The translations under genes and the position numbers were made by a program. This document shows positions 2,490 to 20,600 of a DNA stretch of 21,842 nucleotides, piece by piece. Origin of the DNA: Burkholderiaceae bacterium (GTDB lineage: Bacteria; Pseudomonadota; Gammaproteobacteria; Burkholderiales; Burkholderiaceae_C); assembly GCA_029864165.1 (NCBI GenBank), contig JAOTTZ010000003.1, forward strand, positions 1-21,842. Reading direction: 5' to 3'. Within the stretch, counting starts at the first letter, position 1. Each line of letters begins with the position of its first letter. The notes beneath the pieces were generated by a model, which did not search any database, was not told the DNA's origin, and saw only the letters and a list, made by a program, of their open reading frames with translations.

Positions 2490-2757
2490 AGAACCTATCC
2501 GTGAATAAGACGACCCTGCGCCGGCGCCCCATTGGGCACAGGCGTAGGAGCAAGACGCGCCGTGGTGTGGTTCACCACAAGCGGCTTGCGACACCCGCAT
2601 GTGCCCAATGAGGCGCCGGCCCGAAGGGTTGTGACGACAATGCGCGTCTGCGTCGTTGCAAGCCTTGCGCAGGGCACCACCCTGGGCTGCGGCTTGCGCC
2701 TAGCATCCATCGCATTGTCGTCACAACGCAGGGCCGTCTTATTCACGGATAGGTTCT
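2490..2757. repeat. Structured dispersed repeat, element 1 (268 bp, long terminal inverted repeats, two internal arms)
   Basis: The ends form a 23-bp perfect inverted repeat (2490-2512 with 2735-2757), extended by seven more pairs after one A.C mismatch. Inside lie two long arms. Arm A pairs 2520-2540 with 2600-2620 (one mismatch) and carries a small hairpin (TGTGG/CCACA). Arm B pairs 2628-2644 with 2711-2727 (17 perfect pairs). It contains a nested stem at 2658-2664/2691-2697 and a 5-bp apical hairpin at 2670-2684. The arms are separated by CCCGAAGGGTTG. The whole has the shape of a cloverleaf, and I see no plausible coding sequence. The element is homologous to the copy at 11176-11444. The ends are flanked by TTA on both sides, possibly a 3-bp target duplication. 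Confidence 0.9.
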
Positions 2758-10487: not shown

Positions 10488-11174
10488 ATGACGACAATTC
10501 GCACCCAGTTACAAGCGGTCCACCTTCGCATTGCGCAAGCATGTGCCATTGCGCAACGGCCTGTGCCAGGCATTGCGCTGTTGGCAGTGAGCAAGGCCGT
10601 GGCAGCCGACCGTGTGCGCGAGGCTTACGCCTGCGGTCAGCGTTGCTTCGGTGAGAACTATGTGCAAGAAGCGTTGGCCAAAATCGAACTGCTGGGTGAC
10701 CTGCGGCCCGGCATAGAGTGGCACATGATAGGCCCGCTGCAGAGCAACAAGGCCCGTTTGGTGGCGGAGCACTTCGACTGGGTGCACAGCGTGGACCGGC
10801 TGAAGTTGGCTGAGCAATTGAATACACGTCGTCCTGAACGGTTGGCGCCCATGAACGTTTGCCTGCAAGTCAATATCAGCGCCGAAAAGAGCAAGAGCGG
10901 GCTGATGCCTGAGGAGGTAAGCGCCGTCGCCCACGCCTTGGACGAGCTGCCCCGGCTGCGTTTGCGCGGATTGATGGCTATTCCACAACCCGCGCAAACC
11001 TTTGAGGCACAGCGCGGACCACATCGCGCGCTGCGCGAACTGTTCGAAGCGTTGAAGGCGCAGGGGCTGAGCCTCGACACGCTATCGATGGGGATGAGCG
11101 ACGACCTGGAGGCCGCCGTCGTCGAAGGTGCTACCGTGGTGCGCGTCGGCAGCGCAATATTCGGCCAGCGTTAG
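10488..11174 (+). CDS. yggS: PLP homeostasis protein YggS (PLPBP family)
   Basis: The 228-residue protein is a single-domain fold-type III PLP-binding protein. The family has no established enzyme activity and controls the pyridoxal-phosphate pool and amino-acid/vitamin B6 balance. The PLP lysine is Lys36 in LLAVSKAV, followed by the signature FGENYVQEA. HMIGPLQSNKAR, VNISAEKSKSG, LRGLMAIP, MGMSDDLEAAV and VRVGSAIFGQR are all typical. The first ATG gives the expected N-terminus. It is divergent from pilT. Its TAG stop is one base before repeat element 2. Confidence 0.97.
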   Translation: MTTIRTQLQAVHLRIAQACAIAQRPVPGIALLAVSKAVAADRVREAYACGQRCFGENYVQEALAKIELLGDLRPGIEWHMIGPLQSNKARLVAEHFDWVHSVDRLKLAEQLNTRRPERLAPMNVCLQVNISAEKSKSGLMPEEVSAVAHALDELPRLRLRGLMAIPQPAQTFEAQRGPHRALRELFEALKAQGLSLDTLSMGMSDDLEAAVVEGATVVRVGSAIFGQR

Positions 11175-11175
11175 C

Positions 11176-11444
11176 AGAACCTATCTCATAATCATTCACG
11201 TGTGCGACGGTGGCAATTCGGGATGCGATGCGAGAAGGCCGAGCGCACCCATATCGGGCATATGGGTAGCGAGGCCGACGCTGCAGCGCGCCCGCATTGC
11301 CCCCGTCCCGAAGGGTTGAGGCCAAAATCGCCGCTGGCGGCGTTGCTTGCCTTGCGCATATTCCCAATATGGGCTTCGGCAAGCGTCTAGCCAACAGCGA
11401 TTTTGGCCTCAACGCAGCGCGCGAATGATTATGAGATAGGTTCT
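11176..11444. repeat. Structured dispersed repeat, element 2 (269 bp)
   Basis: The ends form a 22-bp perfect inverted repeat (11176-11197 with 11423-11444) beginning AGAACCTATC, as in element 1. Arm A is shorter and less perfect (ACGGTGGCAAT pairing with ATTGCCCCCGT) and includes a CCCATAT/ATATGGG hairpin. Arm B pairs 11315-11331 with 11397-11413 (17 perfect pairs). It has a nested stem at 11345-11351/11378-11384 and an apical hairpin at 11357-11371 with a 5-nt loop. The two arms are joined by the same CCCGAAGGGTTG found in element 1. Distances between parts match element 1 to within 1 bp. It has no plausible coding frame. It fills the space between convergent yggS and sucD and may act there as a bidirectional terminator. 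Confidence 0.9.
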
Positions 11445-12336
11445 AGAGCAAGCTTTTGAGCAGCTTGCCCATTTCCGACGGATTGCGCGTCACCGCCAGG
11501 CCGCACTCTTGCATGATCGCAAGCTTGGCCTCTGCGGTATCGGCCCCACCCGATATCAGCGCGCCGGCGTGGCCCATGCGCTTGCCGGGTGGCGCGGTCA
11601 CGCCGGCAATGAATCCGGCGACGGGTTTTTTCATGTGGGCCTTGCACCAAAGTGCAGCTTCGGCCTCGTCGGGGCCGCCGATCTCGCCGATCATGATGAC
11701 GGCCTCGGTATCGGGGTCGTCGTTGAACAGCCGCATGACATCGATGTGCTTGAGGCCGTTGATCGGGTCGCCACCGATGCCGACCGCGCTCGATTGGCCC
11801 AAGCCGATGTCTGTCAACTGCGCGACTGCTTCGTAGGTCAACGTGCCCGAACGCGAGACCACACCGACCCGGCCTTTGCGGTGTATATGCCCCGGCATGA
11901 TGCCGATCTTGATTTCGTCGGGCGTGATCAGGCCTGGGCAGTTGGGGCCAAGCAGCAGTGTTTGTTTGCCACCAGCGGCTTGCTTGGCTTTCATTCGGTT
12001 GCGCACCTCGAGCATGTCGCGCACCGGGATGCCCTCGGTGATGCAGACGACCAGGTCGAGCTCGGCTTCGACCGCTTCCCAAATGGCGGCCGCCGCGCCC
12101 GCCGGCGGTACGTAAATCACGCTGACAGTGGCGCCTGTTGCGCTGACGGCATCACGCACGCCGGCAAAAATGGGGATCCCCTCAAAACTTTCGCCCGCCT
12201 TTTTGGGGTTGACCCCAGCGACAAAACAGCGCTTGCCGTTGGCATAGTCGCGGCACATGCGGGTGTGCAAAGCCCCGGTCTTTCCGGTGATGCCTTGGGT
12301 GATGACCTTGGTGTCTTTGTTGATGAGGATGCTCAT
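11443..12336 (-). CDS. sucD: Succinyl-CoA synthetase alpha subunit
   Basis: The 297-residue alpha subunit works with SucC in the TCA cycle to convert succinyl-CoA to succinate with formation of ATP or GTP. The Rossmann CoA-binding domain (about 1-130) has GITGKTG at 15-21. The ligase domain carries the phosphorylated histidine His256 in [23 protein letters not shown] and the C-terminal [14 protein letters not shown] are also typical. Its ATG overlaps the sucC stop by four bases (ATGA), so the subunits are translationally coupled. The stop codon TAG overlaps the last two bases of repeat element 2. Confidence 0.98.
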
Positions 12337-13593: not shown

Positions 13594-13676
13594 TCACCCC
13601 AACCCTCTCCCGCTGATGCGGGATAGGGTGTGTACTTGCCCCCTCTCCCCGATTTAGCCGGAAGAGGTTGGGGTGA
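13594..13676. repeat. Dispersed palindromic repeat of the TCACCCCAACCCTCTCCC type
   Basis: TCACCCCAACC (13594-13604) is matched by GGTTGGGGTGA (13666-13676), an 11-bp perfect inverted repeat. An inner hairpin, ACCCTCTCCCGC paired with GCGGGATAGGGT (13602-13629), lies on its left side. The wording is that of a palindromic intergenic repeat I know from many beta- and gammaproteobacterial genomes. It sits between recX and sucC, and no gene is seen in the surrounding gap (13518-13794). Confidence 0.65.
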
Positions 13677-18883: not shown

Positions 18884-19852
18884 CTAAGAACCTATTCGTG
18901 AATAAGACGGCGGTGCGGTCTGATTTGCCTTGGGCGAAGTGGCCGGCCGCAGCATAGCGCGCATGTCCTGCAACGCCACCGTCGTTTCACTTGCCGGGTG
19001 GGGGCGAGGCGCGGCCTTGAACGCATGCCCGTAGATAATCTCAAAACTCAAGCGCAGCCGGCCATCGGCGCCGGCCAGAGATTGCAGCTCGCGGCACAGC
19101 CTGTCGTGCCAACGTGGCGTGCACAGCCCCGGCCAACGCGCAGACGACGCGTTGCACCCCATGCCGCGCAACTCAGCCAGAAGCGCCTGCGGGCTGCTCC
19201 AAGTCAGACTCAGGTGCTCTTGATCCATCACGGGGTCGGCAAAACCCGCGTGCAGCAACATATCGCCCAAGTCGTGCATGTCCACAAACTCTGTCCCCGC
19301 GACTGGCCAGCCCAGGCGCTGGTACAGCGCACGCAGTTCACGCACCGTGTCGGGCCCCAAGCATGAAAACATCAAAAACCCATCGGCCGCGAGCAGCCTT
19401 TGCCAACGCTGCATCAGGCTCGGCGGGTCGGGCGCGGCGTGCAACATCATGTTGGCCCACAACAACTGTGCCGAAAGAGGCGCGGGTTCACTTTGCGCGA
19501 CTTCCACCTTCGGCCGCAACCAACGGCGCGGTGACCACCAAGGGCTGACTGTTGCGGCCATGCTGCGTTGCACCAGCGCTGCGCTGGGTTCGACCACCAC
19601 GCGCCGTGCTTGCGGGTAAGCCTGCGCCAACAAGGCCGCACTGGCGCCCGTGTAACCCCACCAATCCAACACGGTGGCTGGTCGCAACTTGACGACGGCA
19701 AGGCGCTGCGCCATGCGCCGCGCCACTTCGGCATGCAGCCACGGGGGCTGTGGCTGACGGGACAGGCGGCGCAAAGCGCTATCGACAGCGTTGGCATCGA
19801 CTGGCCTGGCGACGGGTGCGGTCTTAGCAGAAGGTGACGGCGGCGCGAGCAT
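18884..19852 (-). CDS. BioC-like SAM-dependent methyltransferase
   Basis: The 322-residue class I methyltransferase resembles the malonyl-ACP O-methyltransferase BioC of biotin synthesis in its second half: LLWANMMLHAAPDPPSLMQR, ADGFLMFSCLGPDTVREL, FVDMHDLGDMLLHAGFADPV, LLAELRGMGCNAS and LRLSFEIIYGHAF. Motif I is unusual: VLDWWGYTGAS instead of a standard DxGxGxG loop. The biotin assignment is therefore an inference and no other bio gene is in the window. ATG 19852 is preferred; an ATG at 19882 would add ten residues and overlap the start of comF. The last seven codons before the stop (SYSRIGS) are encoded by a copy of the terminus of repeat elements 1 and 2. Confidence 0.8.
   Translation of the reverse strand: MLAPPSPSAKTAPVARPVDANAVDSALRRLSRQPQPPWLHAEVARRMAQRLAVVKLRPATVLDWWGYTGASAALLAQAYPQARRVVVEPSAALVQRSMAATVSPWWSPRRWLRPKVEVAQSEPAPLSAQLLWANMMLHAAPDPPSLMQRWQRLLAADGFLMFSCLGPDTVRELRALYQRLGWPVAGTEFVDMHDLGDMLLHAGFADPVMDQEHLSLTWSSPQALLAELRGMGCNASSARWPGLCTPRWHDRLCRELQSLAGADGRLRLSFEIIYGHAFKAAPRPHPASETTVALQDMRAMLRPATSPKANQTAPPSYSRIGS
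18887..18909. repeat. Solo terminus of the element 1/2 repeat family
   Basis: These 23 bp match the left end of element 1 (2490-2512) at 22 positions, beginning AGAACCTAT. No matching opposite end or internal arm is seen nearby, so only one terminus remains or was acquired. It lies inside the 3' end of the methyltransferase gene, immediately before that gene's stop codon. Confidence 0.85.
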
Positions 19853-19860
19853 GGCATCCC

Positions 19861-19868
19861 AGTATATT
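19861..19868. promoter_or_regulatory. Possible overlapping divergent -10 boxes of comF and the methyltransferase gene
   Basis: TATATT (19863-19868) faces right and TATACT (19866-19861) faces left, sharing four bases. They are placed about 6-8 bp from the ATG of comF (19875) and the ATG of the methyltransferase (19852). Transcripts would be almost leaderless. No good -35 boxes were found, so this is tentative. Confidence 0.3.
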
Positions 19869-19874
19869 GAGCTG

Positions 19875-20600
19875 ATGTTCACCGGCTTGCTGCAACACTT
19901 CGGGCCACCGCTGCGCGGCCTGCCCAGTCAGTGCGCGGTGTGCCATGCCTGGGACTGGCAGCGTTTGTGCGCTGATTGCATCACCCGTTACGTCGCGCCT
20001 TGCCCGCGCTGCGAGCGGTGCGCGATCGAGGTGCCCATAGGCGTACGCACCTGCGGCGCATGCCTGAAACAGCCGCCCCCCTTCGAACACGCACTTGCCG
20101 CGGTGGACTACAAGTACCCATGGGATGGCTTGATCACGGCACTGAAGTTCCACGCAGGCCTGGACTTGGCCACTGTGCTGGCGCAACGCGTGATCGAGGC
20201 GTACGGCAAAGGCGAGCTGCCACGCCCCGGCTGGCTATTGCCAGTGCCTTTGAGCGCTCAGCGCTTGCGCGAGCGTGGCTACAACCAAGCTTGGGAACTG
20301 GCGCGCCGGGTGGCGCCCGCGTTGGGGTGCACCACGCATCCGCGCTGGCTGTTGCGCGTGAAAGACTCACCGCAGCAACTGTCGCTGCCGTTGGCCCAAC
20401 GCGCGGCCAACGTGCGCGGCGCTTTCGCTGTCGCGCCGCGCCGCGCGGACGAACTGCGCGAGCAAACCGTGGCCGTGCTCGACGACGTGATGACCAGCGG
20501 CGCAACCGCCGCCGAAATAGCCCGCACTTTACTGGGCGCTGGCGCCAAGTCGGTGCAGGTATGGGTGGTCGCACGCACACCGCGGATCACAGATCTCTGA
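19875..20600 (+). CDS. comF: ComF family amidophosphoribosyltransferase-like protein
   Basis: The 241-residue protein has an N-terminal double zinc-finger region (Cys20, 23, 32, 35, 43, 46, 60, 63) and a C-terminal type I phosphoribosyltransferase domain. The PRPP loop reads VLDDVMTSGAT (Asp203-Asp204). PVPLSAQRLRERGYNQAWELAR is the family's most conserved stretch. ComF is needed for uptake or processing of single-stranded DNA in natural transformation in Haemophilus and Bacillus; the reaction is not established. The ATG at 19875 was chosen because it leaves a short leader before the first zinc finger; in-frame starts at 19791 and 19851 would overlap the divergent gene. trmL follows after 12 bp. 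Retraction pili (pilTU) elsewhere in the window are compatible with competence, which remains inference. Confidence 0.92.
   Translation: MFTGLLQHFGPPLRGLPSQCAVCHAWDWQRLCADCITRYVAPCPRCERCAIEVPIGVRTCGACLKQPPPFEHALAAVDYKYPWDGLITALKFHAGLDLATVLAQRVIEAYGKGELPRPGWLLPVPLSAQRLRERGYNQAWELARRVAPALGCTTHPRWLLRVKDSPQQLSLPLAQRAANVRGAFAVAPRRADELREQTVAVLDDVMTSGATAAEIARTLLGAGAKSVQVWVVARTPRITDL

Follow-up and report, generated by a model that had tools for sequence, protein, structure and literature searches.

The window, by which we mean the whole stretch of 21,842 nucleotides analysed, is one contig of a 560-contig assembly (87.8% complete) of a Burkholderiaceae bacterium. It carries two elements, W1 and W2, at 2490-2757 and 11176-11444, which a sequence-only reading had described as copies of one structured repeat family and which we found at just these places. 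W1 lies between amt and leuS; amt is on the minus strand, and 39 nt separate the element from the inferred start codon of that gene (2448-2450). W2 sits between the stop codons of yggS, which ends at 11174, and sucD, whose stop codon (11443-11445) overlaps the end of the element (all four gene names are from NCBIfam). The dinucleotides flanking W2 are CA on the left and TA only on the right. The features are listed here with R1 denoting a covariance model built from arm B and the hinge.

2490-2757 (268 nt), plus strand: element W1, consisting of terminal stem, arm A, central hinge and arm B
2490-2520, plus strand: left terminal inverted repeat of W1, pairing with 2727-2757 at 97% (inverted-repeat search, pair list)
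2727-2757, plus strand: right terminal inverted repeat of W1 (inverted-repeat search)
2489-2490: left TA of the W1 target duplication, flank T-TA-G (read from the sequence; the TA rule comes from the single empty site of a relative)
2758-2759: right TA of the W1 target duplication (read from the sequence)
2520-2620, minus strand: arm A of W1, a hairpin of about 100 nt that is the arm-B module inverted (inverted repeat; model R1)
2620-2628: central hinge of W1, CCCGAAGGG, the dyad centre
2628-2727, plus strand: arm B of W1, with a 17-bp outer stem, an internal loop (CGTTGC / GCGCCTAG) and an apical hairpin
11176-11444 (269 nt), plus strand: element W2, with the architecture of W1 and different stem letters
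11207-11307, minus strand: arm A of W2 (R1 match at 11207-11314, minus strand, 31.9 bits; fold)
11307-11315: central hinge of W2, CCCGAAGGG
11315-11413, plus strand: arm B of W2 (R1 match of 110.4 bits, with a model built partly from this very copy; inverted repeat)
18887-18923, minus strand: solitary W1-type element end in the 3' part of a BioC-like open reading frame (ORF; 18884-19882)

The solitary end, which we label a remnant or deletion derivative, encodes the tail PPSYSRIGS and the stop codon of the BioC-like ORF. The window holds one further inverted repeat, at 13594-13676, with 29-nt arms that are 76% complementary and lie 25 nt apart.

On folding, W1 reaches -184.3 kcal/mol against a mean of -106.7 for shuffled sequences (z -14.1) and W2 reaches -164.2 kcal/mol (z -11.7), with none of 200 shuffles as good in either case; W1 refolded with DNA parameters gave a z of -15.1. 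The predicted shape of both is a terminal stem and two long hairpins. Arm B of W1 scored 130.6 bits with R1, which was built partly from that copy. Arm A matched at 2520-2627 on the minus strand with 48.8 bits, a score that by itself is weak support, arm B read backwards reaching 41.1, and the assignment of arm A rests on a motif common to both arms in the family alignment described below.

Comparing W1 with W2 pair by pair gave the same numbers of compensated changes as had been counted by eye: 7 in the first 22 terminal pairs, 7 of 17 in the outer stem of arm B, 2 of 7 in the nested stem and 3 of 5 in the apical hairpin, with none one-sided. The accompanying statement that no one-sided change occurs is correct for these stems but fails when the terminal stem is extended to 31 pairs, where the inner, imperfect part brings the counts to 9 compensated and 6 one-sided.

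A BLAST search of the genome's own assembly with W1 returned 48 matches, shortened copies included. A full copy of W1, 98% identical, lies at 8810-9077 of contig C276 (G000) with different flanks, and a second full W2-type copy lies at 1377-1640 of locus L012. Judged by match coordinates, there are also armless terminal hairpins of about 53-56 bp (G000, C432:6436-6488 and C493:4119-4174), apparently deletion derivatives, and solitary element ends occur on contigs C46, C82 and C94. Beside the W2-type copy, at about 1640-1800 of L012, is a second palindrome with other ends (AGTCCGTTTGACCAAAACC...) and a single arm in which the core motif recurs (TGCGTCGTTGC...GCGCCTAGC); it may be a one-arm relative.

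The family proved far larger than two copies. A covariance-model search, which the sequence-only reading had proposed together with a covariation test, found arm matches in 21 of 40 genomes, the own genome included, many of them adjacent pairs in opposite orientation with a common hinge. We then scanned GTDB contigs for TAGGGCCTGTT, a gap and the reverse complement of TAGGGCCTGTT, at allowed lengths of 258-288. This exact-end scan gave at least 120 stretches; among the matches listed (80 records) were alpha-, beta-, gamma- and zeta-proteobacteria and two acidobacterial metagenome bins. From the stretches 121 elements were extracted, and 111 of these measure 267-272 nt within the range that the pattern allowed. 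Six genomes of Candidatus Thiodiazotropha (G040-G045) have 87-105 BLAST matches each. The terminal repeat is AGAACCTATC in the genome studied here and often TAGGGCCTGTTNACACT elsewhere. A plasmid and phage search with one element of a beta-proteobacterial kind gave no match; five viral-contig stretches contain a full element by exact-end match only.

The CCCNNNGGG hinge is without mismatch in 71 of the 84 de-duplicated elements, compared with 118 of 4200 shuffles, and its mean relative position is 0.500. We aligned the two arms of 79 diverse elements as 158 modules, dropping elements in which the hinge was more than one base off. Both arms carry two motifs, C-N-(G/T)-(C/T)-GTTG and, on the opposite strand, GCCT(T/A)G, most of their positions being kept in 72-97% of the modules. 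Since the motifs are common to both arms, arm A is arm B inverted, and the family unit is a pseudo-dyad in which a terminal inverted repeat encloses two inverted hairpin modules of about 100 nt around a central CCCNNNGGG hinge. Within the modules, three opposed positions of the internal loop form Watson-Crick pairs in only 9, 3 and 1% of the 158 cases. The middle one is G-T in 65%, and one loop position and a neighbor are mostly G-T. We regard this conserved internal loop as the strongest sign of function.

Compensation extends through the family. Of the 36 pairs in the arm alignment, 33 show changes in both partners, with a score of 0.771 against 0.178 for shuffled alignments. This alignment (A3) had been fitted to the model and held copies as well as reverse reads of the same palindromes; after removal of 18 of its 69 rows (copies and reverse reads) the count was still 33 of 36, while slid partners gave 17-25. 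A set of 32 copies aligned by sequence alone, from Candidatus Thiodiazotropha and genomes G046 and G047 (32 of 33 were used, one with an insert being dropped), showed two-sided changes in 30 of 100 pairs. The claim made from two copies, of a structured repeat family in which every stem is compensated, was upheld.

The kinds of mismatch found in the stems bear on the molecule in which pairing is selected. The elements might encode a transcribed structured RNA, such as a regulator, terminator or mRNA stabilizer, that is carried on mobile DNA and selected for its RNA fold. The strong fold and the covariation would suit this, as would the positions of W1 (39 nt away from the inferred start codon of amt) and of W2 (between two stop codons); the conserved G-T at loop positions is something that RNA would tolerate. 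However, G-T (82) and A-C (79) are equally frequent in the stems of 51 diverse elements, and a per-element strand bias is absent (p 0.65). These are 51 of the 84 de-duplicated elements, 33 having been dropped for a poor hinge or for fewer than 12 of 17 ungapped pairs in an arm, which biases the share of paired cells upward. In the outer arm helix of the cleaned arm set the counts were 20 and 18, whereas the stems of 18 tRNAs from the same loci, taken as a control, had 11 G-T and no A-C. The equality in diverse stems argues for pairing at the DNA level and against a transcribed RNA as the selected thing. An excess of G-T was seen in the long stems of the 32 close copies (56 to 14 when cells are counted, 16 to 12 when columns are), a lean that RNA or one-strand DNA could account for. 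Searches of Rfam gave no family at the gathering cut-off, the best score being 17.3 bits against a required 80, and for five related loci gave tRNAs only. Taken together, we consider a selected RNA rather unlikely. Selection on a fold, which the sequence-only reading had placed on RNA or single-stranded DNA and not merely on a transposase-binding end, thus stands in so far as it goes beyond such an end, and its RNA half is argued against.

Close copies were also compared. In 30 sequence pairs with at most 4% divergence, which are not independent of one another, 108 differences were one-sided and 13 two-sided, and slid partners gave 0 and 2 two-sided differences. One-sided differences make up most of those between the closest copies, two-sided ones becoming more frequent as divergence grows, and the lack of one-sided changes noted in the stems of the two copies does not extend to the family as a whole. 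This course, like the symmetric mismatch counts, would also be expected of an ordinary miniature inverted-repeat transposable element (MITE) without selection on its fold, in which palindrome correction by template switching, during replication or transposition, restores the stems. Long inverted repeats are substrates for such correction. But the internal loop is largely unpaired in both arms across 158 modules, and correction would have closed it; the length, the hinge and the two-arm design are kept as well, so that correction would explain the paired stems and not the whole design. We therefore judge this account, too, to be unlikely. The sequence-only reading had named a known insertion sequence or MITE with arms explained by gene conversion as the finding that would tell against it. 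The ends do match an IS5-type element, as described below, and conversion leaves the conserved unpaired loop unexplained.

Outer stems and arm cores behave differently. In genome G011 (loci L197-L217), a near-identical 54-nt core, with 0-3 differences in 54 positions, occurs within two outer stems that differ widely from each other, and other outer stems enclose looser cores with 5 and 7 differences; the stems seem to have been replaced on both sides around a kept core. The two outer stems within an element have a raw mean identity of 0.32, compared with 0.36 between elements (aligned z -0.7), the between-element control being inflated by related elements. The cores of the two arms of one element are more alike than cores from different elements (z +3.0). 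This suggests that the outer stems need to pair, and that those of the two arms may in addition have to be unlike, since with equal arms the unit would be one giant palindrome. A comparable argument is made for REP heterodimers in PMC3733652.

The elements have the marks of mobile DNA. They possess terminal inverted repeats, occur in several copies at different sites and are without coding capacity, as judged by size and palindromic make-up only. A target duplication against an empty site, of 2 bp (TA), was seen at one site: the counterpart of the L097 element in G044 reads TTCAGT/TA/ACAACAGG, and the matches to its left and right flanks have two bases in common, so the L097 copy was inserted at TA and duplicated it. 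The base left of the element is Y in 115 of 119 cases and the base right of it is R in 114 of 119, 2 of the 121 elements being without flank. No empty site was found for W1. In the corresponding search for W2, the yggS and sucD matches of own-genus relatives lay on different contigs, and a comparison of all 121 elements for orthologous sites gave no pair with both flanks in common.

We looked for genes that could move the elements. Insertion sequences of the IS5 family, 827-836 bp long and with ends like TAGGGCCTGTTAAC or TAGGGCCTGTTCAC, were found in 4 of 23 genomes (G008, G022, G019 and G045). They are assigned to IS5 by matches of both halves to NCBIfam IS5_3, each just under the model cut-off, and by DUF4096 and DDE_Tnp_1 matches. 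Read by eye, the better end of the insertion sequence agrees with an element of the same genome in 13-15 of 15 bases. All of the 11 loci in G008 and G022 have C as the left and R as the right flanking base, TA having been part of the search pattern; the second end of the G019 insertion sequence is divergent (TGGGGTGTGTT, not TA). DUF4096-type IS5 transposases occur in 5 of the 23 genomes, 4 of which have the insertion sequence with element-like ends; the fifth, G030, has a DUF4096 match, but no such insertion sequence was seen there. No DUF4096 match was obtained in 18 of the 23, including the element-rich G011, G017, G007, G040-G044, G046 and G047, where the mover may have been lost, another transposase may serve or the search may have missed it. 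A pattern search of seven genomes for inverted element ends 700-3000 bp apart found no pair; the G019 insertion sequence escaped it as well.

In the own genome, whose elements end in AGAACCTATC, there are six DDE_Tnp_1 matches, none in a stretch bounded by two element-like ends; the one on contig C31 runs off the contig and has an end-like string with two mismatches upstream. Six stretches with IS4/5 fragments were read in this genome, three of them for ORFs. Three fragments lie within about 1 kb of elements and none has two element ends, and they were treated as chance neighbors.

The terminal repeat is very probably a transposase end shared with IS5-family insertion sequences, which are the likely candidate for the mobilizer of the elements even though no transposase of this type was found in 18 of the 23 genomes. 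The earlier view that selection acts on more than a transposase-binding end is supported, and the outermost part of the element very probably is such an end.

Two other partners were considered. An inverted hairpin doublet with mismatches brings to mind REPINs, and a REPIN-like unit could be moved as single-stranded DNA by an HUH tyrosine transposase (RAYT or TIRYT). Y1_Tnp genes are present in 29 of 39 genomes, often as a single RAYT-like one, and in one exceptional case, on contig C318 of G001, about 2.9 kb separate a RAYT-like gene from an element arm. Yet the 29 Y1 loci searched, of about 3 kb each, gave a single arm match at chance level (E 2), and inverted repeats of RGGGTC(A/T)G type flank 7 of the 11 RAYT-like genes that were inspected (L257, L259, L261, L263, L264, L266 and L267), four of them with the exact TIRYT consensus GGGGWSAS. 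With the TA duplication and the IS5-like ends pointing elsewhere, we hold such a mover to be quite improbable. Mobilization by an IS630 transposase, in the manner of ERIC, Correia or RUP, shares the TA target duplication and is very improbable, as the IS630 domain DDE_3 was not found in 18 of 23 genomes, including five of the six with about 90-100 matches (the sixth, G045, has it).

We therefore think it probable, though well short of assured, that W1 and W2 are members of a large and chiefly proteobacterial family of mobile DNA elements that are non-autonomous, of fold-back type and about 269 bp long. An IS5-family transposase recognizing roughly the outer 15 bp would move the element in trans. 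When a DNA strand becomes accessible at the replication fork, or is extruded into a cruciform, it would fold, and the two ends would meet as one stem. A putative protein, of transposase or host origin, would bind the arms and loop and so favor transposition or protect the element. Selection would then act mainly on the pairing of the stems and not on their letters, which would let them drift fast through compensated changes, while the arms may be held unlike each other. The CA in place of TA on the left of W2 counts against this explanation.

So conceived, the element works like a MITE with IS5-type ends, and its design resembles a greatly enlarged REPIN. Bacterial MITEs such as ERIC, Correia/NEMIS, RUP and YPAL are likewise non-coding, 70-300 bp long, present in many copies near genes and bounded by inverted ends, and a TA duplication is known for several of them. 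The present element differs in that an IS630 partner is disfavored, that it has two conserved inverted hairpin modules, a central hinge and stems conserved mainly in their pairing, and that one architecture is kept in several proteobacterial classes. Ends of the form TAGGGCCTGTTNAC and C-TA/TA-R flanks are shared with IS5-family insertion sequences (NCBIfam NF033580 IS5_3, DUF4096), a comparison that covers the ends only; unlike them, the element has no gene of its own. Integron attC sites are likewise DNA conserved in folded shape rather than in letters, with unpaired bases; the element differs in having two arms inside an inverted repeat.

REPINs, or REP doublets with RAYT, are also non-autonomous inverted hairpin doublets, and PMC8049555 describes them as long-lasting populations in chromosomes. 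In contrast to a palindrome of 20-40 bp tagged GTAG or CGTC, the modules here are of about 100 nt with a 17-bp outer stem; the element also has a terminal repeat and TA duplication, and no significant arm match lay beside the 29 Y1 loci searched. Di Nocera 2013 (PMC3733652) gives the TIRYT consensus as GGGGWSAS, assigns 8-9 bp stems to CGTC-tagged repeats and presents both the TIRYT-associated TIR repeats and the CGTC-tagged ones as inverted or double-palindromic families in which heterodimers are favored. The ends of the present element are TAGGGCC/TAGAACC, not GGGGWSAS.

A limited literature search, by terms and by end sequence, brought up nothing resembling the element family, in line with the remark of the sequence-only reading that it did not recognize the family. 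The genome paper of the betaproteobacterium EbN1 reportedly names a repeat TRIP1, and an older description may exist; the word TRIP1 is absent from PMC3733652 and PMC2267715. No named family was found to which the elements could be assigned.

A bolder interpretation, which we offer only tentatively and hold to be more doubtful than the explanation above, is that the element represents an undescribed, ancient class of bacterial DNA replicator with folded DNA shape as its heritable identity. Two inverted hairpins with a conserved loop would be closed by a transposase end, their stems free to change while they pair. A putative protein would bind at the loop and apical core, and the arms would make a single-stranded or cruciform form the real substrate of transposition. 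To our knowledge, such a folded substrate is unlike that of any known IS5 element or MITE.

If we are right, a DNA element selected for structure has spread through several classes of Proteobacteria. The family would offer a large natural set of compensated DNA stems and a clear way to test whether the folding of DNA is involved in transposition of the DDE type. It would also be a second candidate, besides REPINs, for a sequence population persisting inside bacterial chromosomes.

The surroundings of the elements carry a weak signal. A convergent gene context was found for 20 of 72 elements compared with 108 of 503 background gaps, after 45 of the 121 elements had been dropped for lying inside crude ORF calls and 4 more had stayed unclassified. 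Among 82 neighboring gene 3' ends of the 121 elements (L060-L179), 22 belong to ORFs that end at most 10 nt into the element, by the same kind of crude ORF calls, and insertion at YTAR may often supply or keep a TAG or TAA stop codon.
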